NCBI GenBank assembly: GCA_016462905.1
Contig: JAEMSI010000001.1
Coordinates: forward strand, 82,800 to 146,799
Length of the DNA stretch: 64,000 nt
Direction of reading: 5' to 3'
Source: Polynucleobacter sp.
GTDB lineage: Bacteria > Pseudomonadota > Gammaproteobacteria > Burkholderiales > Burkholderiaceae
Positions 8,529-47,423 of the stretch are shown here, piece by piece. Positions within the stretch are counted from its first letter, which is position 1; each line of letters starts with the position of its first letter. The position numbers and the translations under genes are program-made. The notes under the pieces are model-generated. The model was given only the letters and a program-made list of their open reading frames with translations. It made no database searches and was not told the DNA's origin.

Positions 8529-9848
8529 GTGCGTCCTCCATCTAAATCACAATTTGCCTTAGTGGACGGCAATAACTTTTATGTTGCTTGTGAGCGTGTT
8601 TTTAACCCCCTCTTAGAAAATAAACCGGTTGTGGTGCTCTCGAATAACGATGGTTGCGTTGTGGCACGTAGCCAAGAAGCTAAAGACTTAGGGATTCGCA
8701 TGGGAATCCCCTTCTTCGAAGTAAAGCACCTGATTCAAAGTCACAACTTGCTTTGGTTTAGCTCCAATTACACCTTGTATGGCGATATGAGCGCACGTCT
8801 AATGAGTCTTTTAGGGGAATTCTCACCGCACCAAGAAGTGTACTCAATCGATGAATGTTTTCTCGACTTCGGTGGCATGACGCGCGATCCCATCGCCTAC
8901 GCACAAGCGATTCGTAAAAAAACCAAACGGTATCTAGGTTTACCTACCTGCGTTGGTATTGGCAGTAGCAAAACACTAGCCAAGTTGGCTAATCATATCG
9001 CCAAAAAACGCCCCTCCTATAGCGGGGTATTTGATTGGGGGGCATGCGATAACCTAAGCGCCGATAGCCTGATGGCGCAAATTCAAGTGGGCGAAGTGTG
9101 GGGCGTAGGTCGTCGCCTAAACCAACAATTACAAGCGATGCAAATTCGTACAGTACGCGATTTAAAGTACGCCGAAGCCAGTTTAATTCGTAAACAATTT
9201 GGTGTAGTGCTTGAACGCACGGTCGCCGAACTGAATGGCGTTCCGTGTTTAGCTCTGGAAGATACGCAAAGTGCCGGCAACATTCGTAAACAACAGATTA
9301 TTTCCAGTAAAAGTTTTGGTAAACCGATCCAGCATATTCAAGAATTACGCGAGGCAGTTGTTAGTTACACAGTGCGCGCCGCCGAAAAATTACGTCAACA
9401 AAATTCGATGTGCACTCATATCTCAGTTTACATTCGCACCAATCCGTTTTCTCAAAAAAACCCGCCCTATTCCAATAGTATTACTTTGCCTCTAATCTTA
9501 TCGAGTAACGATAGCCGACGTCTTTCTCAACTAGTCTGTGTTGGTCTTGAGCAAATTTACCGTCCTAACTATTTCTATAAAAAAGCGGGGGTGATGTTAT
9601 TAGGAATTCATCCCGAAAATCAATTCCAAGGTAATTTGTTTGAACCTAATCATCTTCAATCTAGGCAGCAACAGGCGCGCTCACAAATTCTAATGAAAAC
9701 CATCGATCAACTCAATCAAACCTATGGTCAGAGCACTCTGATGCTTGCTGGCGCTGGTTTATATGCCCATTGGCGCATGCAAGCAAAACAACGCAGCCCG
9801 AACTACACCACAGCTTGGAATCAACTTGCACAAGCCCAAGCCAATTAA
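8529..9848 (+). CDS. umuC: UmuC, catalytic subunit of DNA polymerase V
   Basis: 439 residues; a Y-family translesion polymerase. N-terminal palm motif [19 protein letters not shown], the catalytic [12 protein letters not shown], then helix-hairpin-helix ([18 protein letters not shown]) and a C-terminal little-finger region with the UmuC-specific tail ([22 protein letters not shown]). The first codon is GTG (8529). It forms an operon with umuD under the LexA box. Length is slightly above E. coli UmuC (422). Confidence 0.96.
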
Positions 9849-31658: not shown

Positions 31659-32540
31659 TTAAATGTGTTTACGCTTTTCCACCATCGTCATAAACTTTTC
31701 ATACTCTTTATCGTCTACGGAGTAACTGTGGTCGTCATCAGGAAAAGTACCGCCTTTCACATCGGCAATGTACTCCTGAATGCCCTTAACGGCAACCTCG
31801 GTCAAATTCGCATAGCGCTTAGTAAATTTGGGCTTAAAGTCTGAAAACACACCTAATAAATCATGGCACAGTAATATTTGACCATCGGTGCCAACCCCAG
31901 CCCCAATCCCAATCGTTGGAATATCCAATTGCTTTGATATCACTGCGGCAATCTTGGCAGGGACAGCCTCAAATTCCAACATAAAACAACCAGCATCCTG
32001 AATTGCAAAAGCATCTTCTAAGATTTTCATCGCGGTATCAGCCGTACGACCCTGTATTCGGAATCCACCGAACATGGCCACCGTATGAGGTGTCAATCCA
32101 ATATGCGAAGCCGTTGGAATGCCAGAACTCACCATCGCTTTTAAAATATGCGCCTGTGATTTTCCGCCTTGAGGTTTGACTGCATCCGATCCCCCTTCTT
32201 GCATAAAACGGGTGGCGTTTTTCAAAGCAATCTCGACGGTGTGATAACTTTGGTAGGGCATGCATCCCAACACAAAGGTGTTCGGTGCCCCGCGACGAAT
32301 TGCCGCAGTATGCATCACCATCATATCCATCGTGGCAGGAATTGTATTGGGGTGCCCATGCGCAATCATCGCCAAGCTATCACCCGCAACCGCCACATCC
32401 ACTCCAGCCGCTTCAGCCCATTTAGCCGAGGTGTAATCGGGCACCGACATGTACACCATTTTTTCGCCTGTCTTTTTCGAATCGTAAATCTCTCCGATAT
32501 TGCGTTTCTTTTTATCTACAGTTGCGGCAGGCTGATTCAT
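31659..32540 (-). CDS. PanB-like enzyme with altered metal site (ketopantoate hydroxymethyltransferase paralogue)
   Basis: 293 residues with clear PanB similarity along its length (VAGDSLAMIAHGHPNTIP, HTAAIRRGAPN, SHIGLTPHTVAMFGGFRIQGR, IPTIGIGAGVGTDGQILLCHDLLG). Against E. coli PanB by eye, Asp45 is kept (Asp54), Lys112 is kept (Lys122) and Glu181 is kept in FEAVP. Metal ligand Asp84 is Cys93 (VLGCMPY) and Glu114 is Gln124 (VKPQGG). Loss of two Mg ligands argues against ordinary ketopantoate synthesis. It is last in a ten-gene cluster with a transporter and a PhyH dioxygenase, so a catabolic aldolase-like role is possible. Confidence 0.85.
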   Translation of the reverse strand: MNQPAATVDKKKRNIGEIYDSKKTGEKMVYMSVPDYTSAKWAEAAGVDVAVAGDSLAMIAHGHPNTIPATMDMMVMHTAAIRRGAPNTFVLGCMPYQSYHTVEIALKNATRFMQEGGSDAVKPQGGKSQAHILKAMVSSGIPTASHIGLTPHTVAMFGGFRIQGRTADTAMKILEDAFAIQDAGCFMLEFEAVPAKIAAVISKQLDIPTIGIGAGVGTDGQILLCHDLLGVFSDFKPKFTKRYANLTEVAVKGIQEYIADVKGGTFPDDDHSYSVDDKEYEKFMTMVEKRKHI

Positions 32541-32559: not shown

Positions 32560-33423
32560 TTACATGGCTCTCACGCTGGGGTTGGCCAAATTGGCATCGT
32601 AACTATCCACTTTGGTTCCTTTATACAGAATTTTGGCACTTTTCTCGGTAATCGTCTGATGCAACTCAACAAAAGCCGGCTCCATCTCGATCGATGGTTT
32701 CGGTTCGTGAACAAACGTATTGAAGGTATCAACGCCCCTTACCAAGGTGGCCGAATCATCGCCCTCCAATTGGCGCACATAAGTCGGTATATAGCGAATC
32801 GCAAAACCAATTCTGCGTTGATTCGATTGATTCGGTGGCGAGCCATGAACAATCCTGACATGGTGCAAAGACATTTCACCAGGCTCCAGTTCTAATGCCA
32901 CAGCCTTACTTTTATCAATCTCAACGGCCACTTCTTGGCCGCGCGTTAACAGATTGTTTTTGCCAAAGGTATCTTGATGCGGAATTTGATCCATTAAATG
33001 CGTGCCGGGAATCACTTCCATGGCTCCATTGCTGCGATTGCTAGGAGATAAAGCAATCCACGCGGTCACCACATCGGGTGTTGATAAACCCCAATAAGTG
33101 GAATCTTGGTGCCAAGAGACAAAAGCGGGATCATTCGCTTCTTTAATAAAGAAATTGCTGGTCCAACATAAAATATGGTGGCCATATAAATCTTCAATAG
33201 CATCGACAATTTTTTCTTGCCGAACTAGCTCATTAAGCCAAGGAAATAATAAATGCGTCTTATGCCGTTGCGAACCATGCAAAGGCTCACCCTGTTTTTT
33301 TTCAAAAGCTTCTAATTGTTCTCGAATTTCAAGAGCGCTTGCTTCATTTAATACTCGCAAATTCGATAGATAACCATCTCTCTTAAATTGCTCAATTTGG
33401 GATCCACTTAAAAATAAACTCAT
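32560..33423 (-). CDS. Phytanoyl-CoA dioxygenase (PhyH) family protein
   Basis: 287 residues. An Fe(II)/2-oxoglutarate oxygenase of the PhyH family: iron ligands His105 and Asp107 in SWHQDSTYWG, distal His193 in IVHGSPPNQS, and Arg204 in NQRRIGFAIRYIP for 2-oxoglutarate. It would hydroxylate an unactivated carbon of a small carboxylate-like substrate. Its ATG overlaps the livF stop by 4 bp (ATGA), and the PanB-like gene follows after 19 bp, so import and oxidation are probably linked. The substrate is unknown. Confidence 0.9.
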   Translation of the reverse strand: MSLFLSGSQIEQFKRDGYLSNLRVLNEASALEIREQLEAFEKKQGEPLHGSQRHKTHLLFPWLNELVRQEKIVDAIEDLYGHHILCWTSNFFIKEANDPAFVSWHQDSTYWGLSTPDVVTAWIALSPSNRSNGAMEVIPGTHLMDQIPHQDTFGKNNLLTRGQEVAVEIDKSKAVALELEPGEMSLHHVRIVHGSPPNQSNQRRIGFAIRYIPTYVRQLEGDDSATLVRGVDTFNTFVHEPKPSIEMEPAFVELHQTITEKSAKILYKGTKVDSYDANLANPSVRAM

Positions 33424-34121
33424 GCGGCACCTCTCATCGATAAATGGGATTGTTTTTTTGCCTCTTCCACCGAACCAACAAAAACGATTTCACCACGCTC
33501 GATTACATAAACGCGATCAGCATAATCAGGAATATGAAAGGCATTCGATTCGGCCATCAAAATAGCTCTACCCATTTTGCGAATCGACGATAAACCTTCA
33601 TTAATCAAGGGGATAATAGCAGGGGATAAACCCTCAAATGGTTCATCCAAAATGAGTAATTTAGGATCTAAAGTTAAGGCACGGGCAATCGACAGCATTT
33701 TTCGTTCACCACCGGATAAATGATTACCACCGCGTTCGCGATACCCTTCTAGTTTTGGAAAAATACGATAGGCTAAAGCAATCCGCTCTTGATTCGATAA
33801 TTCGGTTTGAATCGTCCAGGTCGACATCTCAATATTTTCAGCAACCGTTAAATCACCAAAAACTTCGCTTTCCTCGGGAGCAAAACCAATTCCTTGACGT
33901 GCGATATCAAATGTTTTTTTACCCAGAATCGATTTGTTATCTAATAGAATATTGCCTGTTTTTGGTTTTAGATAGCCCATCACGCTCTTTAAGGTAGTTG
34001 TTTTACCGGCACCATTTCTGCCTACCAAACACACTAATTCGCCCGCTTTGATTTCAAGGCTAATGGCCCGCAGTATTGGGCTATTTTGAATATCGACCGA
34101 AATCGCCTGAATTTCAAGCAT
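33420..34121 (-). CDS. livF: Branched-chain-type ABC transporter ATP-binding protein LivF
   Basis: The ORF track runs to 34244 through livG in another frame. The true start is the ATG at 34121 (MLEIQAISVDIQNSP), giving 233 residues, the usual LivF length, with an 8-bp overlap with livG. Walker A is GRNGAGKTTTL, the signature LSGGERKML and Walker B LLILDEPFEGL. It energises a HAAT-family importer together with LivG. Confidence 0.93.
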   Translation of the reverse strand: MLEIQAISVDIQNSPILRAISLEIKAGELVCLVGRNGAGKTTTLKSVMGYLKPKTGNILLDNKSILGKKTFDIARQGIGFAPEESEVFGDLTVAENIEMSTWTIQTELSNQERIALAYRIFPKLEGYRERGGNHLSGGERKMLSIARALTLDPKLLILDEPFEGLSPAIIPLINEGLSSIRKMGRAILMAESNAFHIPDYADRVYVIERGEIVFVGSVEEAKKQSHLSMRGAA

Positions 34122-34878
34122 GCTGCACTCGCTTTCCAATAATCTTGGCTTGTAGCTCTTCACTAGCGAAAAATTCCTTGGGCGGTAAATCAGCCAATAA
34201 TTTACCCTCGGCCAAAGCGACGATCCGAGTTGAGTATTCCGCAACTAATTCCATATCGTGCTCAACCAGTAACATCGTCTTAATGCCTGCTAACTTAGCA
34301 GCCGTCATTAAGGTATCCATAATCCCACGCTTATCAGCAGTCGAAATGCCGCTAGTAGGCTCGTCTAATAAAATTACTTGAGGACTTAAAGCAAAAGCAC
34401 TAGCAATATCTAGTAATTTTTTCTCCCCTTGCGAAAGATAAGAAGCCTGCCAGTCCATTTTTTTATCTAAATTAAAGATCTTCGCCACCTCGAAAGCGCG
34501 CTCGACCATCTCGGTTTGACCAGCAGCTTGGGACCAAAAGTTATATTGCGTATTGCGCTGTGAGATCACGGCAGACATGATTGTCTCTTCAACTGTCAAT
34601 TGCGGAAAAATTTGTACCAGCTGAAAAGCCCGCGCCATGCCCAACTGGGCCAATTTGACTGGCCCCACCCCCGCAATCGAATTACCTAAAAAATGAACCT
34701 CGCCAGAAGTAGGCTTTAGTAAGCCGGTTAAAACATTCACAAAGGTAGTTTTACCAGCGCCATTGGGGCCAACGATAGCGACAATTTCATTTTCATAAAA
34801 TGGCAAAGTGACATCTTGTAAAGCTTTAAAAACACCGTAATGCTTTGATACGCTGGTGGCTTCGAGAATCGGTTTCAT
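34114..34878 (-). CDS. livG: Branched-chain-type ABC transporter ATP-binding protein LivG
   Basis: 254 residues. Walker A GPNGAGKTTFVN, signature YLSQGEKKLLDIA (LSQGE rather than the common LSGGE, normal in LivG) and Walker B VILLDEPTSGIS, followed by the H-loop LVEHDMELV. Overlaps livM by 4 bp and livF by 8 bp, so the transporter genes are translationally coupled. Confidence 0.95.
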   Translation of the reverse strand: MKPILEATSVSKHYGVFKALQDVTLPFYENEIVAIVGPNGAGKTTFVNVLTGLLKPTSGEVHFLGNSIAGVGPVKLAQLGMARAFQLVQIFPQLTVEETIMSAVISQRNTQYNFWSQAAGQTEMVERAFEVAKIFNLDKKMDWQASYLSQGEKKLLDIASAFALSPQVILLDEPTSGISTADKRGIMDTLMTAAKLAGIKTMLLVEHDMELVAEYSTRIVALAEGKLLADLPPKEFFASEELQAKIIGKRVQHA

Positions 34879-35840
34879 GATTCAATCTCTCTTTGGGGCA
34901 TTTTTTTCTTACTAAAGATGCCCATAATTCCATTGGGCAATAAAATCACCAGCAAAACTAAAACAACGCCCAAGGCAAAACGCCAATAGGGAGTTAGGGT
35001 CACCAATTGATCTTTTAGTCCAATAAAAACAAAAGCGCCAATAATCGGACCAAAGAAATTATTAAAGCCGCCCAAAATCGTCATAAAAACAATATTTCCA
35101 GATTGCGTCCAATACGCTAGCTCGGGATCTGCTAAGCCGACTGGTACGATCAATAAAGCTCCGCCTACCGCTCCGTAGACAGCCGAGATAACAAATGAAA
35201 TCAAACGGAATTGATGAACTTTAACCCCGAGATACTCGGCCTTACGTGGGTTATCACGAATTGCTTGCAAATGGAGCCCTAAGGGCGAACGCACGATGCG
35301 CCACATTAAATAACCAAAAATCAACATGACCACCAAGGAATAATAAAAAAAAGGGCCAATTAAAAAAGCAGTCTTATCTAATTCACTTAAATCCTGGCCT
35401 AGTAAATTAGGGCGTACAACCTTAATGCCGGAATCGCCACCCGATAAATCATAAAACTTGAACAAGATGGAATGAAACAACATTCCAAAAGCTAGGGTTA
35501 GCATGCCAAAGAAAATACGTACATAACGAACGCATAAAATACCAATCGGGATCGAAATCAATAAGCTCACGCCAATCGAAGCCAGAATATTGAGTTCCAT
35601 ACTTTTAATACCCAAGCGGCTGGTGAGAATGGCTACCGTATAAGCCCCTAAAGCAATATAAAGCGCATGACCAAAGGATAGTAAGCCGGTATACCCAAAG
35701 AGCAAATTAAAACCCAACAAAATCACGCTTGAGGCAATCGCAGGTAATAATAAAATCACATAATACGGTGGTAGAAAAAAAGGAGCGGCACACAAAACAA
35801 GCAATGCACCCAAAACAATTAGTTGTGTACGGAAATTCAT
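34875..35840 (-). CDS. livM: Branched-chain-type ABC transporter permease LivM
   Basis: 321 residues with about 8-10 hydrophobic segments. The LivM signature region is seen in LLFGYTGLLSFGHALYIALGAYT and in the cytoplasmic loop ICVRYVRIFFGMLTLAFGMLF; GLHLQAIRDNPRKAEYLGV is the coupling (EAA-like) loop contacting the ATPases. It overlaps livH by 4 bp and livG by 4 bp. Confidence 0.94.
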   Translation of the reverse strand: MNFRTQLIVLGALLVLCAAPFFLPPYYVILLLPAIASSVILLGFNLLFGYTGLLSFGHALYIALGAYTVAILTSRLGIKSMELNILASIGVSLLISIPIGILCVRYVRIFFGMLTLAFGMLFHSILFKFYDLSGGDSGIKVVRPNLLGQDLSELDKTAFLIGPFFYYSLVVMLIFGYLMWRIVRSPLGLHLQAIRDNPRKAEYLGVKVHQFRLISFVISAVYGAVGGALLIVPVGLADPELAYWTQSGNIVFMTILGGFNNFFGPIIGAFVFIGLKDQLVTLTPYWRFALGVVLVLLVILLPNGIMGIFSKKKMPQREIES

Positions 35841-36718
35841 TCGGCTGCCTTTCCGTATAAACCATTTGGTTTAAAAATTAATACTGAAATCACGATTAAA
35901 TAAATTAATAATAATTCGAGCTCAGCATAAAAATGGATCGTAAAGGCGCGCATTAATCCGACTACGAGAGCCCCCACTAGGGCTCCGCGCATACTGCCCA
36001 AACCGCCAATCACCACCACCGCAAAGGCTTCGACTACCACCTCTGAAATCATTTCTAATGAAGCGGCTGAGGTAGGTACCACCAAAGCACCTCCGATGGT
36101 TCCTAAAATAGCACCCAGCGTGAAAATAATTACGTTAATCCAAACGACATTGACTCCTAGCGCCTCACTCATGCGGCGATTTTCAGCAGTGGCACGAACA
36201 ATCCGCCCAAAATTGGTTTTTTGTAGCATCCAACCCATGCCAAGTGCCAAAACAAGGCTCGAAAAAATGACTAGTACTTTATATACGGGCAGAGAAACTG
36301 CCCCTAGGCTCACTTGCCCATAAACCATCGATAAATTACCTAGGGTCATGGGAGTTGCCCCCCAAATCATGCGTATTAAATCTTCTAATAACAACATCAC
36401 TGCAAAGGTTAGCAGTAGCTGAAAACCCTCTTCTCGGTCATACACTAAACGCAATAAGCGCTCAATCGCAATCCCCACTAAACCAATCCCAATTCCTGAG
36501 CCTAATAAAATCAAAATTAAAAAGTAAGAAGGGATGCCATATTTAATTGCTACCCCTACCATCGTGATGCCAAAATAAGCACCGAGCGCATAAAAAGCGC
36601 CGCACGCTAAATTAACAATTTTTTGCACGCCAAAAACTAATTGCAATCCTCCTGCAATTAGAAATAAAACTGCGGCATGAAAAATACCGCTTAAAAATAG
36701 ATCAATATAGGCTGTCAT
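35837..36718 (-). CDS. livH: Branched-chain-type ABC transporter permease LivH
   Basis: 293 residues, about 8 membrane segments. LivH motifs: GGLQLVFGVQKIVNLACGAFYALGAYFG and FGRIVRATAENRRMSEALGVNV (coupling loop), then GGLGSMRGALVGALVVGLMRAF. It lies downstream of livK past a terminator-like hairpin, so its expression is probably lower than that of the binding protein. Confidence 0.94.
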   Translation of the reverse strand: MTAYIDLFLSGIFHAAVLFLIAGGLQLVFGVQKIVNLACGAFYALGAYFGITMVGVAIKYGIPSYFLILILLGSGIGIGLVGIAIERLLRLVYDREEGFQLLLTFAVMLLLEDLIRMIWGATPMTLGNLSMVYGQVSLGAVSLPVYKVLVIFSSLVLALGMGWMLQKTNFGRIVRATAENRRMSEALGVNVVWINVIIFTLGAILGTIGGALVVPTSAASLEMISEVVVEAFAVVVIGGLGSMRGALVGALVVGLMRAFTIHFYAELELLLIYLIVISVLIFKPNGLYGKAAE

Positions 36719-36768: not shown

Positions 36769-38064
36769 TTAAAGGGTAATTTTGGCGGTCTCCAACCACT
36801 GCCAAAAATCCATTCCAGGTGGTTTTTGTAATTCACTGCTGAATTTCTTGTCCACAGGGTTGGAAGTAACAAAGTCATATTTATTTTTATGCGTCGTTAA
36901 ACCCTGATAGAAAGTCTGTTCGGCAATATGATCTTTGCGCATTTTTCCTGGTCCGCCTAAAGACTCAACCTCAATACCCTCGATTGCAGCTGCAATCTCC
37001 TCCGTTTTCGGCCAAGATCCACCCTTGGCTTTCTGAGCTTTTTCAGCGCCAGCCTTAAATACTTGCATTGCAAAATAGGCGCGATCAGCTTCCCAGTTCG
37101 GATAATCTTTGTACTTGTCAAAGTAATGCTGAACAAACTCTTTCTGCAAAGGTGATGCATTCGGATAATTAAAATCAAGCGTATTTGATCCAAACACGAT
37201 ACCCTCAGGCGTAAACTCTTTTTTCAATAAAGTTTGTTGGAACCCAGCTGCTGGCATTACAAACTTGGTATCTTTAGTTAAGCCAGCTGCATGAGCGTTT
37301 TGCATAAATACTGGTAAATCCGCAAATAGCAGTGAGGAAAAAATCAAATCAGGCTTTGCGGCTTTTAGTGAGGCAATATGACTTGATAAATCCATCGTAC
37401 CAACCTTAGGCCATTGCTCAGCAACTACCTTCACTTCAATACCAAAGCGCTTCAACAAAGCTTGGAAAGCAGCCCAGTTATTTCGACCGTATGAATAATC
37501 GGGGTTAATACCAGCGATCGTGGCAAACTTCCCTTTGTAATATTTAATCGCTAGTAACGATGCCATCACGGCTTCGCACTCATTATCGGTTGAGCGGAAT
37601 AAATATTTTGGATTAGGAATCGTTTCTTTAACACCGTCCTGAGAGGTACCATCCCAATAAATCGTTAAGGCCTTCATCTCCTCAACAGTCGGACTCATTG
37701 CCAACGAAACCCCTGAAGATACTAAGCCCTGCACACAGTCGACCTTATCTTGCAGAACCAATTTACGGAAACGTTCGGTGGTATCTTTGGCATTCGTTTC
37801 TTCTTCGATCACTAATTCCACTTTACGACCACCAATACCGCCTGCTTTGTTAATCCTTTCTACTGCAAATTGAGTGCCTCGTAAACCACAGACACCAATC
37901 GTACCGGCAATCCCCGCCTGCGGCGCAAGAATGCCAACTTTTAAAGGCGTATTTTGTGCAATCGCAGGAAATCCCCAGCCACCACCAGCCGCCAAAACCG
38001 AAGCGGCGCCAATTCCTTTAATTACGGTACGGCGATTTTCATTTTGAATCTGCTTCTTCTTCAT
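36769..38064 (-). CDS. livK: Branched-chain-type ABC transporter substrate-binding protein LivK
   Basis: 431 residues, a type I periplasmic-binding fold (LKVGILAPQAGIAGTIGVCGLRGTQFAVERINKAGGIGGRKVELVIEEETNA). The N-terminus ENRRTVIKGIGAASVLAAGGG, ending PAIAQ, is a twin-arginine-like signal, so Tat export is likely. The ligand cannot be read from sequence; relatives bind amino acids, amides, urea, aromatic acids or short carboxylates. Cluster partners (PhyH, PanB-like) suggest a carboxylate rather than leucine. Confidence 0.9.
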   Translation of the reverse strand: MKKKQIQNENRRTVIKGIGAASVLAAGGGWGFPAIAQNTPLKVGILAPQAGIAGTIGVCGLRGTQFAVERINKAGGIGGRKVELVIEEETNAKDTTERFRKLVLQDKVDCVQGLVSSGVSLAMSPTVEEMKALTIYWDGTSQDGVKETIPNPKYLFRSTDNECEAVMASLLAIKYYKGKFATIAGINPDYSYGRNNWAAFQALLKRFGIEVKVVAEQWPKVGTMDLSSHIASLKAAKPDLIFSSLLFADLPVFMQNAHAAGLTKDTKFVMPAAGFQQTLLKKEFTPEGIVFGSNTLDFNYPNASPLQKEFVQHYFDKYKDYPNWEADRAYFAMQVFKAGAEKAQKAKGGSWPKTEEIAAAIEGIEVESLGGPGKMRKDHIAEQTFYQGLTTHKNKYDFVTSNPVDKKFSSELQKPPGMDFWQWLETAKITL

Positions 38065-38124: not shown

Positions 38125-38814
38125 TTAATTCTCAGCAAAGAAAGTGTTTCGAGTGCACTCTTCGATGTAATCCAACAACTTATCTAATGCAATTCCCGCC
38201 TGTTTTTCTTTTCCTTGAGCAATCTCCTCAGCTAATATCGCATGCAAGTTAGCCGATTCGACTAAATCAGTATGTTGCTGCAGATGCCCAAACCAAAAAC
38301 GACGTGACATCCCATGCAGAGAAGACATAGCTGCTGCGGCAAATTCATTGCGAGCCGCAATCACTGTAAAGTCATTAAGTTCTTTATCAATCTTTAAAAA
38401 TAAAGTGTTATTTTTGTCGCGCGCTGCCCGCCGAAACTCCTTAGCTAAACGCTCAAATTCTTTTTTATCTTCGGCATTGGCCCGTTTAGCTGCTTTTTTG
38501 CAAATTAAACGCTCTAACTCTCGCCGCGTTTCTAAAACACGTAATTGTTTTTGAGCATTGACATCGGTAATAAAAACTCCCCGTTTTGGCAGAATGGTAA
38601 CCAAATGCTCGCGGCTCAAGCGTTGTAAGGCTTCACGAATCGGGGTTCGACCAATATCTAAAAGAGCAGAGAGCTGGCTTTCGGAGATGGGCGTACCTGG
38701 GGCCAATTGGTTTGTCACAATCAGTTCCTCAATCTGACGATAGGCCAAATCGGATAACGACTGATCTTCTGGATTAATTACTAAGGCTAAATTCGTGAAT
38801 CGTCGAGAGGCCAT
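38125..38814 (-). CDS. GntR-family regulator, FCD subfamily
   Basis: 229 residues. N-terminal winged helix (QIEELIVTNQLAPGTPISESQLSALLDIGRTPIREALQRLSREHLVTILPKRGVFI) and a helical FCD domain (ETRRELERLICKKAAKRANAEDKKEFERLAKEFRRAARDKNNTLFLKIDKELNDF). It sits inside the ten-gene cluster between the ABM-like gene and livK. It most likely controls the cluster through the 16-bp palindrome upstream of the first gene. Confidence 0.92.
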   Translation of the reverse strand: MASRRFTNLALVINPEDQSLSDLAYRQIEELIVTNQLAPGTPISESQLSALLDIGRTPIREALQRLSREHLVTILPKRGVFITDVNAQKQLRVLETRRELERLICKKAAKRANAEDKKEFERLAKEFRRAARDKNNTLFLKIDKELNDFTVIAARNEFAAAAMSSLHGMSRRFWFGHLQQHTDLVESANLHAILAEEIAQGKEKQAGIALDKLLDYIEECTRNTFFAEN

Positions 38815-38829
38815 CTGAATAAAAAGCCC

Positions 38830-39420
38830 TTAAGCAAACTGTTGCGGAGCTTCGGCTCGATCAAACATGCCGTAATCACGGCATACCTCAAACCAACGTA
38901 AATCAATCTCTGCGCCGAGTTGCGAAGCCTTCAATGGCATCGCCTCAGCACCCTGTTCAATACTTAAATCACACAAGGCAATACCTCTTTGGGGATTAAT
39001 AATGCCTTTAAATAAACGCGGCTGGCGTAACTGCATATCAGCTTGTTTCACTAATGCGTTAATTTTTTCAAAATCACCGACCAAAACAGCAAGGCCTTCA
39101 CGAGCCCGATTCGGTGGAGCAAAGTCATCGGCTGTTTTCTCTTCACCCACCCGTAAGCGATAATCCTCCAATACTAAATTACGACCGCAAACCTGAGCAC
39201 CATTGTGATCGTATTGGCAACGCCATTGTTTTAAGGAGTCTTCATTTTTCCATTGAGAGAAAGATAAATACCAATCGGATTTCTGTAAATTAGCAAAACG
39301 CTCCACCGAAATAAAACCGGGATTTTGCTCAACAATCGGTCTCAAGCCAACCGCCATGGCAAAGTAAGCGTCGACAAAGTTTGGCTTGGGTAATACATCA
39401 AAGAAGACTGCTTGGGTCAT
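38830..39420 (-). CDS. ABM-like (antibiotic biosynthesis monooxygenase fold) protein
   Basis: 196 residues, no signal peptide. The N-terminal half (FVDAYFAMAVGLRPIVEQNPGFISVERFANLQKSDWYLSFSQWKNEDSLKQWR) matches the small alpha+beta-barrel ABM/YgiN-type domain, often a cofactor-less oxygenase or heme-degrading fold. The C-terminal half is a second, weaker repeat-like region ending in YGMFDRAEAPQQFA. It lies 15 bp upstream of the GntR gene. The function in the cluster is unknown. Confidence 0.7.
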   Translation of the reverse strand: MTQAVFFDVLPKPNFVDAYFAMAVGLRPIVEQNPGFISVERFANLQKSDWYLSFSQWKNEDSLKQWRCQYDHNGAQVCGRNLVLEDYRLRVGEEKTADDFAPPNRAREGLAVLVGDFEKINALVKQADMQLRQPRLFKGIINPQRGIALCDLSIEQGAEAMPLKASQLGAEIDLRWFEVCRDYGMFDRAEAPQQFA

Positions 39421-39443: not shown

Positions 39444-40283
39444 TTAGCTAGCTAAAACTCTATTTTCTTCGGGGGATAAAATCGGCCCCTCTAAAGTCAC
39501 TTTCTCTTCCTGAACTCGACCATCTTTAAATTTATCAATGATGGGCTTAAGTTTTGGGTCAATATGCTGATCATTAAAGCCATTCAATAAAGTACCAATC
39601 AAACCGCGCTTCAAATCGGATGTGCCCATGATCCAATCGGCAATTGGAAAGGTCAAATTCATATTTTTATGCATCATGATTCCCATATTGTGATGGGCCG
39701 CATGATGACGACGAATGGTATTGATAAAAGGCATATGACGAACAAACCAGTTTTCTTTAATGTGACAGCAATAATGAAAGGTTTCGTAAACAATGTAATG
39801 GCCAACCATCGTCATATACACAATGTAGCCTACATTGGGATTAAATAGTTTCGCAGCAATATAACCCAAGATGCTTCCAGCGACCCCTAAAACAATCAAT
39901 ACTCGCCATGGGAAAAAAACGATTCGATGTTCCTTAACGGTATCAATCGTGTAATCAGTATCGGTAAAATATTGGTGATGTTGGCGAGTATGCCGATCAT
40001 AAATTGCGCGCAAAGCAAATACATCGACTAGACGATGCATGACAAAACGATGCATTCCCCACTCCACAAAATTACCAGCAATCGCCACTGGAATAATCGT
40101 CAACCATGCCCACGTTGGCTGATCCAACTGCGAATAGCAATAATAGATCGCTGTAATGCCTGCGATATACATCACGCCAATATGAAATAGTCCGTTATAA
40201 AAAGGGCTAACTTGATTGATGTAGGCTGCGCGAAATTTTTTCTGCCGCTCGGTCATCATCATCGGCTTTGAAAAACTGCTCAT
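39444..40283 (-). CDS. Membrane di-iron hydroxylase/desaturase family protein
   Basis: 279 residues with about four membrane segments and the histidine boxes of the fatty-acid hydroxylase superfamily: HRFVMH, HTRQHHQYF, HYCCH and RRHHAAHHN. Members oxidise lipids, sterols or carotenoids with a di-iron centre at the inner membrane. It is the first gene of the ten-gene cluster, behind a 16-bp palindrome. Substrate unknown; it differs strongly from the second family member at 54.3 kb. Confidence 0.88.
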   Translation of the reverse strand: MSSFSKPMMMTERQKKFRAAYINQVSPFYNGLFHIGVMYIAGITAIYYCYSQLDQPTWAWLTIIPVAIAGNFVEWGMHRFVMHRLVDVFALRAIYDRHTRQHHQYFTDTDYTIDTVKEHRIVFFPWRVLIVLGVAGSILGYIAAKLFNPNVGYIVYMTMVGHYIVYETFHYCCHIKENWFVRHMPFINTIRRHHAAHHNMGIMMHKNMNLTFPIADWIMGTSDLKRGLIGTLLNGFNDQHIDPKLKPIIDKFKDGRVQEEKVTLEGPILSPEENRVLAS

Positions 40284-40329
40284 TTAACTCTCCTTTTTTC
40301 ACAGCGTAGGCATGTATCAGTAAGTATAT

Positions 40330-40345
40330 ATCTAATATATTAGAT
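40330..40345. promoter_or_regulatory. 16-bp perfect palindrome upstream of the ten-gene cluster
   Basis: ATCTAATATATTAGAT lies 47 bp upstream of the membrane hydroxylase ATG, in the 104-bp gap after mdcH. Its size and symmetry suit a GntR/FCD dimer, and such a regulator is encoded two genes downstream. I see no second copy upstream of livK or the Bug/mdc operon. Confidence 0.65.
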
Positions 40346-40387
40346 GAATACTAGCATAACTATGAATCAATAGTCCCTGGGTAAACC

Positions 40388-41320
40388 CTAGAATTTAGAG
40401 AGGGTTGTACCAATCCAAGAAACAACACCCTGAATCGTTCTAAAGTCTGCAACCGAGCGGATTGCAACTTGCGGATGCGCCACGTTAAACATTTTGGTAA
40501 GGGCATTACCAGGCCCCAACTCAAGTACTACTCTAACACCACGATCCACCAAGGTTTGCATGCAGGCTTGCCAATCAATCGGTTCGCCAATCGCTCTAGC
40601 CAAAAGATGAAGACCGCTAGCAGTATCCGTTGAAATTGATCCAGAAAGACAGCTCAGTACAGGTATAAATGGTTTCGGTAAGAAAGTGGCTTGCTCCAAA
40701 TACTCCCTAAACTTCAATTGAGCTTGCCGCATTAGTGGCGTATGCGATGGTACGCTGACATCTAGCAGTTTTGTCCAAATCGAACTGCTTTCACAATATT
40801 GTTGAAGGATCCGTAAATCGTGTTTTAAACCGCCAATCACAAAATGATCAGGCTCGTTCACAATTGCGATATATGCTCGCGATTCCCCAAGCAACTGCTT
40901 AATTTGTAATTGGCAGGCCTCTTGACCAAGCCCGCGAATAGCAAGCATGCCCGCCTGTTGCGGTTGATATTGCTCCATCAAGGAACAGCGCGCATAGGTC
41001 ATTGCAACAAGCTGCTCTATCGTTAGTGCACCAGAACAACCCCAAGCCGATAGCTCACCCACGCTGTAACCTGCTACAAATTCAGGGGTGGGTAAATGCG
41101 GACTTAAAAGCGTCCAATTAGCAACTGCTGAAGCAACTGCCAAGGGCTGGGCAATCGCATTACGCGTTAGATTTTCCTCACTTGCTATCAGAGAAAGAAA
41201 ATTAATCTTAAACGTACTGGAGAATGAGTCAATAATCGCTCGGCCTTGATTTTCACTAGCGCTCTTTTCTAAGATAGCGCGATCGATATTTCCCTGACCC
41301 GAAGCAATCACAGCAAACAC
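40388..41320 (-). CDS. mdcH: Malonate decarboxylase epsilon subunit (malonyl-CoA:ACP transacylase)
   Basis: 310 residues, an FabD-like acyltransferase with the nucleophile elbow AGYSVGELSA and ARCSLMEQYQPQQAGMLAIRG. It first loads malonyl onto the acyl-carrier subunit to prime the enzyme. The start is GTG, immediately after the mdcB stop codon. Last gene of the mdc operon. Confidence 0.9.
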   Translation of the reverse strand: MFAVIASGQGNIDRAILEKSASENQGRAIIDSFSSTFKINFLSLIASEENLTRNAIAQPLAVASAVANWTLLSPHLPTPEFVAGYSVGELSAWGCSGALTIEQLVAMTYARCSLMEQYQPQQAGMLAIRGLGQEACQLQIKQLLGESRAYIAIVNEPDHFVIGGLKHDLRILQQYCESSSIWTKLLDVSVPSHTPLMRQAQLKFREYLEQATFLPKPFIPVLSCLSGSISTDTASGLHLLARAIGEPIDWQACMQTLVDRGVRVVLELGPGNALTKMFNVAHPQVAIRSVADFRTIQGVVSWIGTTLSKF

Positions 41321-42205
41321 TTAAATCTCCTTCGTTTCAATTTGATCAATCAACAAACAAGCACCTAAAAGATCGGCGCAACCACCGGGACTTAAATTCA
41401 TTGCAATAAATTGCTGATGTATTTTCTGGGTTTGCAAAAACCAAGAATCTTGAAACACACCACCTTGGTCGATGAATTGTTGCGCAGCTTGTTGGGCAAA
41501 ATTTAAGCCCGAAAGACCACCACGATATAGTAAATTAGTATCGTCAATCTGAGCCAGCAGGGCATAAAAGGCCTGAATTCGCGCTAATGAGGAATTATTA
41601 GTAAATTGATAAGTTATACGATAAGCAGGCAAAGCAATCGTGTACACCGACGAAAAGCCACTGATAGCCTGGGCTCTTGCTCCACCAGCATCATGATATT
41701 CCTTACGCACCAGTGAACCATGGCTATGGACTAAATCACGATGCTCTCGGAGGTCAGCGCCCCACTGTTGCTGAATAATTTCACCTAGGGTGAACTGACG
41801 TAATTGATGTGTAAGGCGATAGGCAGCAGCTGCCGCTAATAAACCCAAAATAAAAATCGCGCCGCGATGTGTGTTAACGCCCTTCGTAACCAACATCATA
41901 TGTTGCTCGGCAGCCATTCCAAGTTCTTTTAGGGCTCCAAATGGCTCTTGATTCATACCGGCATGAGCCATCCGTAAAAAATAGTTACGTAAACTAAATA
42001 GGCTACGGAACATTAAGTCAGCATTCATATCGCGATGACTACCACAGTCTTCTTTGCTGACTAAACCTGCCTTAGGAAATGTAATTAATTCTTCCCATAA
42101 AGCTCGAATGCAGGCTCTTTGAATAAAAAGACAAGTTTTACGAGATGATTGCTCAACGATGACGTCATCATGCAAAATCAGATCGTCCATTAATGCGCTC
42201 TCCAA
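41321..42205 (-). CDS. mdcB: Triphosphoribosyl-dephospho-CoA synthase
   Basis: 294 residues, CitG/MdcB family. Makes the 2'-(5''-triphosphoribosyl)-3'-dephospho-CoA precursor of the ACP prosthetic group. Family features: LVSKEDCGSHRDMNADLMFRSLFSLRNYF, GVNTHRGAIFILGLLAAAAA and a C-terminal GLSGLNFAQQAA, then SPGGCADLLGACLL. Overlaps mdcG by 16 bp. Confidence 0.92.
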   Translation of the reverse strand: MESALMDDLILHDDVIVEQSSRKTCLFIQRACIRALWEELITFPKAGLVSKEDCGSHRDMNADLMFRSLFSLRNYFLRMAHAGMNQEPFGALKELGMAAEQHMMLVTKGVNTHRGAIFILGLLAAAAAYRLTHQLRQFTLGEIIQQQWGADLREHRDLVHSHGSLVRKEYHDAGGARAQAISGFSSVYTIALPAYRITYQFTNNSSLARIQAFYALLAQIDDTNLLYRGGLSGLNFAQQAAQQFIDQGGVFQDSWFLQTQKIHQQFIAMNLSPGGCADLLGACLLIDQIETKEI

Positions 42206-42849
42206 AGGTCAGTTTTCGAAATTAGCAGCGGCTCAAAATCTGATTTCAACAATAAGTAATCGCTAGCGCTAAGCCACTCTTTCCAAGCTACCGATTGACC
42301 ATGATCTAATTCGATTTCGCCATCTAACTTAGAAAATAAAAGCCTGTCCAATTTCATCAAATCGGCAATCAATAGTTGCGCCTGCGCTAGCTTCCCAAGC
42401 TTAAACAGTAAATCAATATCCGACTCAGGACTCATTAAAACTTTTTTTTGAGCGAGGCTCCAAAAGGCAGAACCATAAACCTGCACTGCTATTTGATGCC
42501 GCTTAGCAATCACCAAGACTTGTTCACAAAGGCTTTGCAAATGGTTTGGAATAAAAGGCTGTGCTTCGCTTAATAATGCGGGTTCATCAACCCGCAAAAT
42601 CAAATCGCGCGGAATATAAAAAGCGAGGCGTAATTTATATCCATCAGGCCCAAAATACATCAGACCTAATGGCGCAAAATGATTTCGCAATGCTTTTTCA
42701 TCGGCGCGCCATGCCCTGCCTACGAAAGGTCTTTCAGATAATATCCAATTCTCTAAATAAGATTGTTCCAACTGATTTAAGCTTTGTAAAGAAACCAGTT
42801 GGTCCAAAGCATTTTTTTTGAGAATAACTCTGCGGTGGCGCCAAGTCAT
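42190..42849 (-). CDS. mdcG: Malonate decarboxylase holo-ACP synthase (phosphoribosyl-dephospho-CoA transferase)
   Basis: 219 residues. Nucleotidyltransferase-like: VYGSAFWSLAQKKVLMSPESDIDLLFKLG holds the G-S and D-x-D motifs that bind metal and nucleotide. It attaches the CoA-derived group to the serine of MdcC. The N-terminal region RPFVGRAWRADEKALRNHFAPLGL is typical of MdcG. It follows mdcE by 9 bp. Confidence 0.9.
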   Translation of the reverse strand: MTWRHRRVILKKNALDQLVSLQSLNQLEQSYLENWILSERPFVGRAWRADEKALRNHFAPLGLMYFGPDGYKLRLAFYIPRDLILRVDEPALLSEAQPFIPNHLQSLCEQVLVIAKRHQIAVQVYGSAFWSLAQKKVLMSPESDIDLLFKLGKLAQAQLLIADLMKLDRLLFSKLDGEIELDHGQSVAWKEWLSASDYLLLKSDFEPLLISKTDLWRAH

Positions 42850-42858
42850 AAAACTAGA

Positions 42859-43563
42859 CTACTTGGCTTTTTTAATAGTGCGGATCACAAAATCGGCCTT
42901 TGTACGACCCCCTAACTGAGAGCCTCGTTCTGCTCGCCTATCCTCTGTCTGCGGATGATTTAAAGCTAACTCAAGTGAGTTTGCTAAATTTTTTTCCCAG
43001 ACCCCGTCGAGCGCTCCCATAGATAAATAATTGGCCACCCCTGGTCCAAAAATTGGCGATGATTTACAAAGCTCTTCTAATTGATCAAGTGGAATTAATG
43101 TGATCCTCGACATCGCAGGCAAAGCCATCACCCGAATCTGAGCATGACTCAAGGCATACGATTGATCGGCCATCATACCCAAGGCAAGATATCCGCCACT
43201 AACGGCTTCGTTATAGACTAAACTAATAATCGGGTGGCCTTGGATTCGAGCTAATTCAAAACATTTTGATAAGTGCGCTAAGTAACCAGCATTGCCTAAC
43301 AATTCATCCCGTCGCGAGAGTAGCTGACCTTGAGTATCAACTAACACTAAAATCGCTTGCTGAGGGGATTTTTTAATAATTTCTAAAAGTTTGCCAGCTA
43401 AAGCAAAAGCTAGATCCACACCAATTGGAGCTGAATTACGTGTTCCCAAGATAGAAACGGTTTGATTGGCACAAACACCCTCCCCGTAAATCATCTCTCC
43501 AGCATTTTCCAGATGAAAACCTGCAGGAAAAAGCTCTGCGCAAATTATTTGAGCATCAGCCAT
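42859..43563 (-). CDS. mdcE: Malonate decarboxylase gamma subunit
   Basis: 234 residues, carboxyltransferase (crotonase-like) fold: DLAFALAGKLLEIIKKSPQQAILVLVDTQGQLLSRRDELLGNAGYLAHLSKCFELAR and VYNEAVSGGYLALGMMADQSYAL. With MdcD it decarboxylates malonyl-S-ACP to acetyl-S-ACP. The ATG overlaps the mdcD stop by 8 bp. Confidence 0.92.
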   Translation of the reverse strand: MADAQIICAELFPAGFHLENAGEMIYGEGVCANQTVSILGTRNSAPIGVDLAFALAGKLLEIIKKSPQQAILVLVDTQGQLLSRRDELLGNAGYLAHLSKCFELARIQGHPIISLVYNEAVSGGYLALGMMADQSYALSHAQIRVMALPAMSRITLIPLDQLEELCKSSPIFGPGVANYLSMGALDGVWEKNLANSLELALNHPQTEDRRAERGSQLGGRTKADFVIRTIKKAK

Positions 43564-44467
43564 GGGTTCGTACCCGATTAGCGATTGACATAAACTCGGA
43601 ATAATCTAGACTAGATATTTTTTCAGGCTCAGTAATTCCTAAGATCTTCCAGATATCAAAAGCCTCTGTGCATGTTCCAAATTGATTTAAGCGCTGACCA
43701 AGCTCGCGATGCTCGGCTTCCAATTGATCTAAATTGATTGGAATTGGATGATTTAGTAAGGAAATTAAATGGTCACGAATCGACATAAAGGAATCTTCTG
43801 CAAAGGATTGGGCTTCGTTGATCAAATAGCGATGCTTGCCACCCATGGTTCGCCACACTAGGGCTCGATCGCGGGCGTCAAATTCTTCTACCCCTTTTTG
43901 AGCCTCAATAACCTCGGGACCCGAAACAGAAAGTCGACCTTCCTCGGTAATCAAAACATAATCACAACAGCGCGCGACGATACTGATGCCGCCATAAATA
44001 CCATTTGAACCAGCAGAGACTGCGATCACAGTAACGCCAGAATTCCTAGCTTTAAAAAGTGCTCGTTGGATTTCAGAAATCGCGATCAAACCAGCATTTG
44101 CCTCATGCAAACGCACTCCACCGGTATCTAAAATTAAAATCACGGCACTTGGCTTTTCATCGGATGCTAATTCCAACAAACCGGTGAACTTAGCCCCATG
44201 CACCTCGCCTACAGAACCGCCCATAAATCCGGGTTCTTGAGCGGCACACAATACTTTCTTACCAGCCAGCAAGCCACGACCCACCACCATGCCATCATCA
44301 AAAGCGACCGGTAAATTTAATTGCTTTAAGTGAGGGCTAATTACACGCTCAGATGGAGGTAAGAACTCAATAAAACTATTGGGATCTAATAAATGCGCCA
44401 CCCGAACACGAGCTCGTGCCTCATAAAAACTATCGTGTCGAATTGAGTTCATCCTGATTTGCTCCAT
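43556..44467 (-). CDS. mdcD: Malonate decarboxylase beta subunit
   Basis: 303 residues, the partner carboxyltransferase: AKFTGLLELASDEKPSAVILILDTGGVRLHEANAGLIAISEIQRALF and SVSGPEVIEAQKGVEEFDARDRALVWRTMGGKHRYLI. The ATG at 44467 overlaps mdcC by 19 bp. Met6 (MNSIRHDSF, 44452) is an alternative start still inside the overlap. Confidence 0.94.
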   Translation of the reverse strand: MEQIRMNSIRHDSFYEARARVRVAHLLDPNSFIEFLPPSERVISPHLKQLNLPVAFDDGMVVGRGLLAGKKVLCAAQEPGFMGGSVGEVHGAKFTGLLELASDEKPSAVILILDTGGVRLHEANAGLIAISEIQRALFKARNSGVTVIAVSAGSNGIYGGISIVARCCDYVLITEEGRLSVSGPEVIEAQKGVEEFDARDRALVWRTMGGKHRYLINEAQSFAEDSFMSIRDHLISLLNHPIPINLDQLEAEHRELGQRLNQFGTCTEAFDIWKILGITEPEKISSLDYSEFMSIANRVRTHG

Positions 44468-44769
44468 TCGCTTGCCGCTTGAGCAAGTCGCAAAGAAACT
44501 ACCGCTGGAGTTGCGCCGCCATCGTTAATGGTCATCACGGTATTGCCAAACTGATTTAACTCAGCAAAATCAGATAAAACAGCAACCCAAGTGCTAGCGA
44601 AGCCCCGCACCGAAGTCTCCACATAAATCTGTATTTTTCCAGTCAGATCGGCCCACTCAACCAATATTTCTAGATTACCCGATCCAACAACACCCACTAA
44701 AACTGGGGGTTTTTTCGAGTCCAGAAGCGACTTGGGCCATGGGCCGAAGGTATATTGCAAACTTTCCAT
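44449..44769 (-). CDS. mdcC: Malonate decarboxylase acyl-carrier protein (delta subunit)
   Basis: 106 residues. Serine 30 in VGVVGSGNLEIL is the expected attachment site of the phosphoribosyl-dephospho-CoA group. The conserved RGFASTWVAVLSDF and INDGGATPAVVSLRLAQA follow. It carries acetyl/malonyl thioesters between the subunits. It lies 3 bp after the mdcA stop codon. Confidence 0.94.
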   Translation of the reverse strand: MESLQYTFGPWPKSLLDSKKPPVLVGVVGSGNLEILVEWADLTGKIQIYVETSVRGFASTWVAVLSDFAELNQFGNTVMTINDGGATPAVVSLRLAQAASEWSKSG

Positions 44770-44772
44770 GAT

Positions 44773-46413
44773 TTACCAATTCCTAAAACGTTTAGGGGGA
44801 TCATAAAGCCCTCCTGACCAACGTACTAAATCTTTAATTGAGCGAGCTGCTAATAAATTACGATTCGCATCGCGGGGATCAATTCCTAAATCAGCCGGTC
44901 CCTGCACAATTCCACGTGCGCGCAAGGATTCAACCATTTTTTTATTTCGTTTTAAACCCACCGGCGTGTAGCCCGCAACACCACGAATCGCCTGCTCACG
45001 TTCCTCGATATTTTGACAGCGGTGCAAGTGGGCAATACCTTCCTCAGTCACCAAGTGAGTTAAATCATCGCCATAAACCATCACTGGCGGCAAACTCAAC
45101 TGAAAGTCTTCCATCAATTGCCAAGCATCTAAGCGCTCGACAAAGGTAGCTTGCATTTTTTCGCGAAAAGTTTCCACCGTCTGTACCACTAATTTCCTAC
45201 CACGTGGCATGGTAGAACCAGATAAAGAAACGCTTTCAGCCCCCGCTTTTAACCAAGCTTTACTGGCATGGCGACGGGCTCGTGAATCAGAACCAAAGTT
45301 AGGCGCCCCGCCAAAACCAGTGATTCGGTTTAAAGTCGCGGTTGAAGAATTGCCCTCGATATCCATTTGCAGAGTTGAGCCAATAAATAAATCTGAATAA
45401 TGCCCCGCTAACTGACAAAAGGCTCGATTTGATCGCATCGAACCATCACTACCAGTAAAGAAAATATCGGGTCGCGCAGAAATATAATTCTCCATTCCTA
45501 ACTCAGATCCAGCGCTATGAATATTCTTAATAAATCCAGACTCAATCGCTGGAATTAAGGTGGGACAAGGATTGACACTCATGTATTGGCAAATTTTATT
45601 TTTTAGGCCCAAAGACTCTGCATAGGTTGGCAAAATTAATTCAATCGCCGCCGTATCAAATCCGATACCATGATTCAAACGATTAATTTCATACGGTAAA
45701 TAGATGCCTTTAATCACCATCATCGCCATCAAAATTTGAACTTCCGTAATTAAGGCAGGATCGCGCGTAAAAATCGGCTCGATATGGTGCTGTTTGGGAG
45801 ACTTCACCACAAATGAAACCCAATCACTGGGAACATCAATGCGCGGAAGCACATCGACCATTTCGTTGACCTGCGCAATCACAATGCCATTTTTAAAGGC
45901 AGTAGCCTCAACAATTGGCGGAGTATCTTCGGTATTCGGTCCAGTATATAAATTACCCTCTCGATCGGCGCTTTGTGCTGCAATAAAGGAAACGCGTGGA
46001 GTTAAATCGACAAAATAACGGCTATACAACTCAAGGTAAGTATGAATTGCCCCCACCTGAACAATATTTTCCTTAATCAATTTACCGAGTCGCACACCCT
46101 GATCGCCGGAATAACAAAAATCTAATTTACGAGCAATCCCCTTTTCAAAAATATCGAGATGCGATGGCAGTGCTATATTGGACTGAACAATATGTAAATC
46201 ATGAATTTTTTCTGGGTTTACTTGAGCTAAACATTGCGATAAAAAGTCAGCGTGTTTTTGATTATTTCCTTCAATACAAACTCGATCATAGGGCTCTAGA
46301 ATGAATTCAAGTAGTCGCACCATGTCATTCGTTTGAACCTGCTTGCCCAAGGTAATCGCCTTGGCGCGTTCCAAACGCTTAGCCAAATTAAGGGCTAATG
46401 AATTCCATGTCAT
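44773..46413 (-). CDS. mdcA: Malonate decarboxylase alpha subunit (acetyl-S-ACP:malonate ACP transferase)
   Basis: 546 residues, CoA-transferase-like. It exchanges malonate for acetate on the ACP. Conserved segments: GNNQKHADFLSQCLAQVNPEKIHDLHIVQSNIALPSHLDIFEKGIA, RVSFIAAQSADREGNLYTGPNTEDTPPIVEATAFKNGIVIAQVNE and ITGFGGAPNFGSDSRARRHAS. First enzyme gene of the operon, 29 bp after the Bug receptor gene. Confidence 0.96.
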   Translation of the reverse strand: MTWNSLALNLAKRLERAKAITLGKQVQTNDMVRLLEFILEPYDRVCIEGNNQKHADFLSQCLAQVNPEKIHDLHIVQSNIALPSHLDIFEKGIARKLDFCYSGDQGVRLGKLIKENIVQVGAIHTYLELYSRYFVDLTPRVSFIAAQSADREGNLYTGPNTEDTPPIVEATAFKNGIVIAQVNEMVDVLPRIDVPSDWVSFVVKSPKQHHIEPIFTRDPALITEVQILMAMMVIKGIYLPYEINRLNHGIGFDTAAIELILPTYAESLGLKNKICQYMSVNPCPTLIPAIESGFIKNIHSAGSELGMENYISARPDIFFTGSDGSMRSNRAFCQLAGHYSDLFIGSTLQMDIEGNSSTATLNRITGFGGAPNFGSDSRARRHASKAWLKAGAESVSLSGSTMPRGRKLVVQTVETFREKMQATFVERLDAWQLMEDFQLSLPPVMVYGDDLTHLVTEEGIAHLHRCQNIEEREQAIRGVAGYTPVGLKRNKKMVESLRARGIVQGPADLGIDPRDANRNLLAARSIKDLVRWSGGLYDPPKRFRNW

Positions 46414-46442
46414 AAATAAATTAAGCGATCAATCTAAAGCGA

Positions 46443-47423
46443 TTAGCTATCAAGAGTAATTTTCGAATCCTTAATCACTGTGCCCCATTTTTTTAAGTCG
46501 GCCTGAATTAGACTTAGTAATTCACTGGGGGTTCTAGGTTCAATTTCATCATTGCCCAATTTTTCTAACTCTTTGGCGACCGCAGGATCAGAAACAACTT
46601 GTTTGAGTTCGCTTTGCAGTCTTGATGCAATTGGGGACGGCAACTTGGCGGGGCCCACCATCATGAAACGTAAGACCGCTTCATACCCTTTGACCCCCTG
46701 CTCGGCTATGGTGGGAACATTGGGCAAGGCGCTTGATCTCGCAGTGGTAGTAACACCCAAGGCCTTTGCCTTGCCTGCGGCAATCATTGGCAACGCAGGT
46801 CCAATAGTGGCAAACATGATCGGAATTTGACCGCCAACTAAATCAACTAGTGCTGGGCCTGCTCCCCGGTAAGGAATATGAACTACAAAAGTACCTGTTC
46901 TGGCTTTAAATAATTCACCGGCAAGGTGGTGAACTGATCCTACGCCTGAGCTAGCATAACTATATTGGCCAGGCTTCGATTTTAAAAGGGCTACCAATTC
47001 AGGAATGTTTTTTGCATTGACGCTAGGGTTGACCAACAGCACTAATCCAGTCGAGCAAACATACGAAAGCGGTGTGAAATCAGTCAGGGGATCGTAAGAT
47101 ACCTTTCTTAAATTAGGCATGATACAAAGTGGTCCAGTATCGGTTAAGCCGATGGTGTATCCATCTGGATTACTTCTCGCAACAAATTCTGCACCAACCG
47201 ATGCGCCTGCACCCGGTTTGTAATCAACCACCACAGACTGCTTTAGTTTTTGTTCAAGCGGACGATTCAGAATTCGAGCGGTTGCATCCGATGCCCCGCC
47301 CGTTGTATAGCCCAAAACTAATTTAATTGGTCGATCTGGCCAAGTTTGTGCTCGCAGCACAGGAGCGAACAATGCGGCTAATAAACCGCCTATCAACTTT
47401 AAAGTATTTCTCTTTTTCATCAT
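46443..47423 (-). CDS. Bug/TctC-family tripartite tricarboxylate transporter receptor
   Basis: 326 residues. Signal peptide ending APVLRAQ, then the hallmark start WPDRPIKLVLGYTTGGASDATARIL and later YSYASSGVGSVHHLAGELF, PYRGAGPALVDLVGGQIPIMF. It binds a carboxylate in the periplasm. Placed directly ahead of mdcA, it probably binds malonate or a related dicarboxylate. No TctA/TctB membrane partners are in the window. Confidence 0.92.
   Translation of the reverse strand: MMKKRNTLKLIGGLLAALFAPVLRAQTWPDRPIKLVLGYTTGGASDATARILNRPLEQKLKQSVVVDYKPGAGASVGAEFVARSNPDGYTIGLTDTGPLCIMPNLRKVSYDPLTDFTPLSYVCSTGLVLLVNPSVNAKNIPELVALLKSKPGQYSYASSGVGSVHHLAGELFKARTGTFVVHIPYRGAGPALVDLVGGQIPIMFATIGPALPMIAAGKAKALGVTTTARSSALPNVPTIAEQGVKGYEAVLRFMMVGPAKLPSPIASRLQSELKQVVSDPAVAKELEKLGNDEIEPRTPSELLSLIQADLKKWGTVIKDSKITLDS

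Follow-up and report, generated by a model that had tools for sequence, protein, structure and literature searches.

Operators of the FadR subfamily of GntR regulators are mostly palindromes with conserved TKGT/ACMA boxes, and exceptions have been listed (PMC4494728). The closest analogue in mechanism to the locus analysed here is AlkR of Pseudomonas aeruginosa (GntR/VanR, FCD; PMC12042122, PDB 9ISW), an FCD-GntR repressor with a single palindrome over the −10 element and a membrane monooxygenase gene as its target. MdcY, the malonate decarboxylase repressor from the group with a 2-nt GT-AC spacing (PMC4494728), is likewise an FCD-GntR protein. BioR (TTATMKATAA; PMC4494728), also of the FadR subfamily, has an AT-rich palindrome that is free of GT/AC boxes. 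In a 64,000-nucleotide stretch of Polynucleobacter sp. DNA (the window), we describe a predicted FCD-GntR repressor that resembles AlkR in each of the features named; the two proteins have detectable sequence similarity, which does not in itself establish orthology. Unlike the window regulator, AlkR acts on alkB2, recognizes an operator, ATTGTCAGACAAT, with GT/AC boxes and responds to long-chain acyl-CoAs. The MdcY group also differs from the window in having GT/AC boxes, whereas BioR shares their absence but has a shorter operator of another sequence and serves an unrelated pathway. An ordinary kind of bacterial regulation that uses an unusual recognition sequence is a well-supported description of the window locus.

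The first-pass annotation had drawn attention to a 16-bp perfect palindrome just upstream of a cluster of ten genes with an FCD-type GntR gene inside it. Reading the window directly, we found this palindrome, ATCTAATATATTAGAT, at 40330-40345. It precedes by 46 bp the first gene of a co-directional set of ten (40283-31659: fah, an ABM-domain gene, gntR, livKHMGF, phyH and panB), and open reading frames and domain matches bore out both the cluster and the regulator gene (38125-38814) within it. On one side of the palindrome is mdcH, with its stop side at 40388, and on the other the ATG of fah at 40283, which leaves a 104-bp gap; no terminator-like hairpin was found in this region. The sequence has no other match in the window at up to three mismatches, or in the 1.84-Mb genome to which the window belongs at up to two. 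The dyad is larger than first reported, as outer arms (AGTAT/ATACT, minus-strand reading) extend it to 30 bp (Table 1).

Table 1 Features of the putative operator and the operon downstream of it, in window coordinates.
Feature	Position	Strand	Remarks
Reported palindrome ATCTAATATATTAGAT	40330..40345	.	Inner part of the predicted operator
Conserved core CTAATATATTAG	40332..40343	.	Kept before fah, gntR/abh, mfs, phyH and livK in relatives
Extended interrupted dyad AGTAT-AT-ATCTAATATATTAGAT-GA-ATACT	40323..40352	.	13/15 pairs, 30 bp
Candidate promoter element, extended −10-like TGCTAGTAT	40346..40365	-	Inferred; directly upstream of the operator
fah, first operon gene	39444..40283	-	279-aa membrane protein; histidine-box pattern of fatty-acid hydroxylase/sterol desaturase type
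ABM-domain protein	38830..39420	-	Domain match
FCD-type GntR regulator, third operon gene	38125..38814	-	PF00392 and PF07729; presumed repressor acting at the palindrome
livK, periplasmic binding protein of Liv/urea type	36769..38064	-
livH, livM, livG, livF, Liv-type ABC importer permeases and ATPases	33420..36718	-
phyH, PhyH-family Fe/2-oxoglutarate dioxygenase	32560..33423	-
PanB paralogue, last operon gene	31659..32540	-	One of three in the genome

Taken by itself and on the scale of the window, a perfect 16-bp palindrome is no better than chance. Resampled windows contain about 1.5 of them on average, and a second one, GATTGCAGCTGCAATC, which is consistent with chance, occurs within livK at 36982-36997; both points would suit an AT-rich sequence with no function. 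For a stretch of 104 bp with the base composition of this intergenic region, the probability of such a palindrome is about 0.006. What makes the palindrome a real site, despite its chance-level frequency, is its conservation upstream of orthologous genes. The search of related genomes that had been proposed as a check recovered the core, CTAATATATTAG, no more than 150 bp ahead of fah in 60 of 80 named-genome loci (≤2 mismatches), which rules out a lack of conservation. These loci represent Polynucleobacter, Cupriavidus, Pandoraea, Paraburkholderia, Caballeronia, Herminiimonas, Oxalicibacterium, Hydrogenophaga, Achromobacter, Advenella, Azoarcus, Stutzerimonas and Pseudomonas, among others. Across 25 sampled genera of the family, homologues of GntR were present in 13 and of fah in 11, distant homologues included. 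In the 20-kb loci of GC-rich relatives that have both genes, the core mostly occurs in two or three copies before cluster genes. Around fah it was found within about 60 bp in 30 of 34 loci at up to two mismatches, whereas the reversed core never came closer than four mismatches. Upstream of gntR it was present in 32 of 36 loci, and two of the four exceptions are the window and G254, a sister genome of the same genus, in which gntR lies inside the fah operon. Where gene order is reshuffled, the core also precedes gntR, the hydrolase gene, the MFS transporter gene, phyH and livK; in Advenella, fah comes after the transporter gene and the site stands before the hydrolase gene instead. Loci totalling 1.71 Mb held 107 distinct near-exact sites, of which 105 were just upstream of cluster genes, as against no sites at all for the reversed core, and the exact core occurred in 59 of 300 family genomes, as against one for the reversed control. 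Since GC-rich genomes from many genera keep the exact core in this position and reversed sites are absent, the chance reading is, on this comparison, already refuted, and we give it next to no probability.

We next considered which protein might use the site. It was present in 53 of 60 fah loci with a gntR orthologue and in one of seven loci on long contigs without one (Fisher p 1e-4, with loci counted as independent and their relatedness ignored). An FCD-GntR gene lay within 1.5 kb in 27 of 30 fetched exact-core loci of the family, and the other three were fah promoters. Three GntR homologues (43-49% identical) that occur without fah had no operator-like site upstream of the regulator. In orthologous loci, the site stands upstream of the regulator's own gene or operon as well as of linked targets, as expected of an autoregulated operator. 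The earlier proposal that the palindrome is the operator of the cluster, with the GntR protein encoded there as its presumed regulator, has strong backing from both conservation and this co-occurrence. We consider it highly probable that the palindrome is the core of a predicted operator of about 30 bp that mediates negative autoregulation by the FCD-GntR protein encoded at 38125-38814. The same core lies beside other FCD-GntR groups in Burkholderiaceae that are 24-37% identical to the window regulator, so that the main user in this genome could be a regulator encoded elsewhere; this is very unlikely, as the presence of the site here follows that of the local gntR orthologue, and an unlinked regulator would normally have a site before its own gene. 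No regulatory site other than the palindrome was convincing in the genome of the window. A search of this genome for further members of the regulon gave, besides two CTGGTATGTTAG matches, a single extra near-core site, on contig C21; this site and an exact core on contig C9 of G254 both lie within open reading frames and were taken as chance. In G254, the nearest sites carry two mismatches, and phyH has an operator-like site of its own.

The putative local user of the operator is a protein of 229 residues with an N-terminal GntR winged helix-turn-helix (PF00392, 62.4 bits) and a C-terminal FCD domain (PF07729, 55.4 bits), both above cut-off, which places it in the FCD (FadR) subfamily of the GntR family. 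Its best NCBIfam match, TIGR03338 (phnR_burk), is also a top match of most other GntR proteins beside the core; at 78.4 bits against a cut-off of 271.5, the window regulator falls outside this equivalog. Residues R56, T57, R60 and E61, which align with the recognition helix of FadR, are invariant in 74 orthologues. Arg35 of FadR prefers G (PMC4494728), and its counterpart in the window regulator, by an alignment made by eye, is Ser46, a replacement that fits the AT-only core. The core departs from the usual operator of the subfamily in having A/T where the GT/AC boxes stand, and our literature search did not find CTAATATATTAG reported in this context. Its occurrence beside several other FCD-GntR genes points to a group-level motif of related FCD regulators, another of which could bind the site in some genomes. 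Tentatively, and with less than even confidence, we suggest that several paralogous FCD-GntR groups of Burkholderiales form one recognition class that reads this GT/AC-free core within a dyad of about 30 bp with outer TAT/ATA boxes, perhaps as two dimers. If so, a shared recognition class might allow cross-talk between catabolic regulons. Recognition in the absence of GT/AC boxes can also serve as a test of the GntR recognition code. We note that some of the other FCD-GntR genes beside the core (loci L082-L111) lie next to a glucarate-dehydratase-like gene.

The position of the site relative to promoters suggests how it might act. In 47 of 82 distinct fah promoters, compared with about 0.3 expected, the core is preceded at a distance of 15 or 16 bp by a TTGAC or TTGAT hexamer. 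Read as a −35 box, this hexamer implies that in relatives the core covers the −10 element, which suggests repression. At the fah promoter of the window itself, a consensus scan gave no sigma-70 promoter and no −35 box was recognisable; the candidate element TGCTAGTAT overlaps the outer arm of the operator. The outer TAT and ATA boxes, like a C/G pair located three bases beyond the core, are kept not only at fah sites but also, independently, in front of other genes, which makes them probable parts of the operator and not of the fah promoter. Starting from conservation, the position before targets, co-occurrence with the regulator and the −35 spacing in relatives, we infer that this GntR physically binds the site, that it represses and does not activate, and that a ligand releases it. 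A GntR dimer, possibly two, would sit on the promoter of the ten genes and block RNA polymerase at the −10 region; with gntR third in the operon, this would close a negative autoregulatory loop, and binding of a pathway metabolite to the FCD domain would release the promoter. Some FCD regulators have dual roles, and the protein might activate from the palindrome instead, which we regard as very unlikely indeed given that the site in relatives covers the −10 element and does not lie upstream of −35. Autoregulated repression through covering of the −10 region is probably the mode of action.

Metal-dependent FCD regulators use an Asp and three His residues as metal ligands. We set these positions by alignment to 3sxy and from general knowledge of FCD domains. 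Among 74 aligned orthologues, the presumed ligands D143 and H191 are invariant, the first of the three His is Asn (N147) in every one, and the last, at position 216, is mostly Asn or Tyr. The regulator therefore departs from the metal-dependent type at two of the four presumed ligands, and the classical metal-carboxylate pocket looks broken, which weakens the case for a metal-bound carboxylate effector. The idea of a substrate-sensing switch that responds to a carboxylate, proposed in the first-pass annotation, had no support here other than the habit of the family. Sensing of a carboxylate substrate via a metal-containing FCD pocket concerns only the ligand and is compatible with the operator reading; although FadR-subfamily regulators often bind carboxylic acids (PMC4494728) and the cluster has malonate decarboxylase genes next to it in the window and in several relatives, we consider it unlikely in view of the replaced ligands, one of them in all 74 orthologues.

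These malonate decarboxylase genes (mdcH, mdcB, mdcG, mdcA and relatives; 40388-47423 of the window) are frequent neighbours of the cluster in relatives, and in some of them a GntR protein 46-48% identical to the window regulator adjoins mdc genes and is a possible MdcY. An MdcY-type site was rejected, as neither the surroundings of mdcA in the window nor eight mdc-linked loci contained a TTGTATACAA-like sequence (≤1 mismatch). No mdc regulator gene was seen in the 46.4-52 kb stretch upstream of mdcA; a gene for a TctC-like binding protein lies upstream of mdcA.

With its Liv-type importer, histidine-rich membrane protein, PhyH dioxygenase and PanB paralogue, the ten-gene operon looks like one for uptake and oxidation; livF probably starts at 34124. 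In other genomes, gntR and fah are accompanied by an MFS symporter, an alpha/beta hydrolase and an iron-dependent alcohol dehydrogenase instead. The fah product had no match in Pfam or NCBIfam, a profile search gave no relative of solved structure, and its predicted structure (mean pLDDT 53.8) was too poor for use; from its sequence, we describe it as an unclassified hydroxylase-like family. The histidine-rich protein is kept across many Burkholderiales at 62-84% identity. Literature on the operon yielded only an unrelated nod-box fatty acid hydroxylase. The comparison would assign a regulator, an operator and a promoter geometry to an operon of catabolic appearance that is spread over Burkholderiales and also occurs in some Pseudomonas, Stutzerimonas and Azoarcus; its lead enzyme has no counterpart in Pfam or NCBIfam. 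The motif allows the regulon to be traced in unannotated genomes. At locus L063 (genome G034, 8600-8611), an operator-like site with one mismatch has a partial fah copy on one side and, on the other, three genes similar to those of glycolate oxidase subunits (glcDEF), which may be a further target. Besides the panB gene of the fah operon, the window's own genome has PanB-family genes on contigs C49 and C71. The C49 copy adjoins a folK-like gene (identified by eye) and looks like the biosynthetic one, as expected from such a neighbour; the third lies beside ABC transporter genes.
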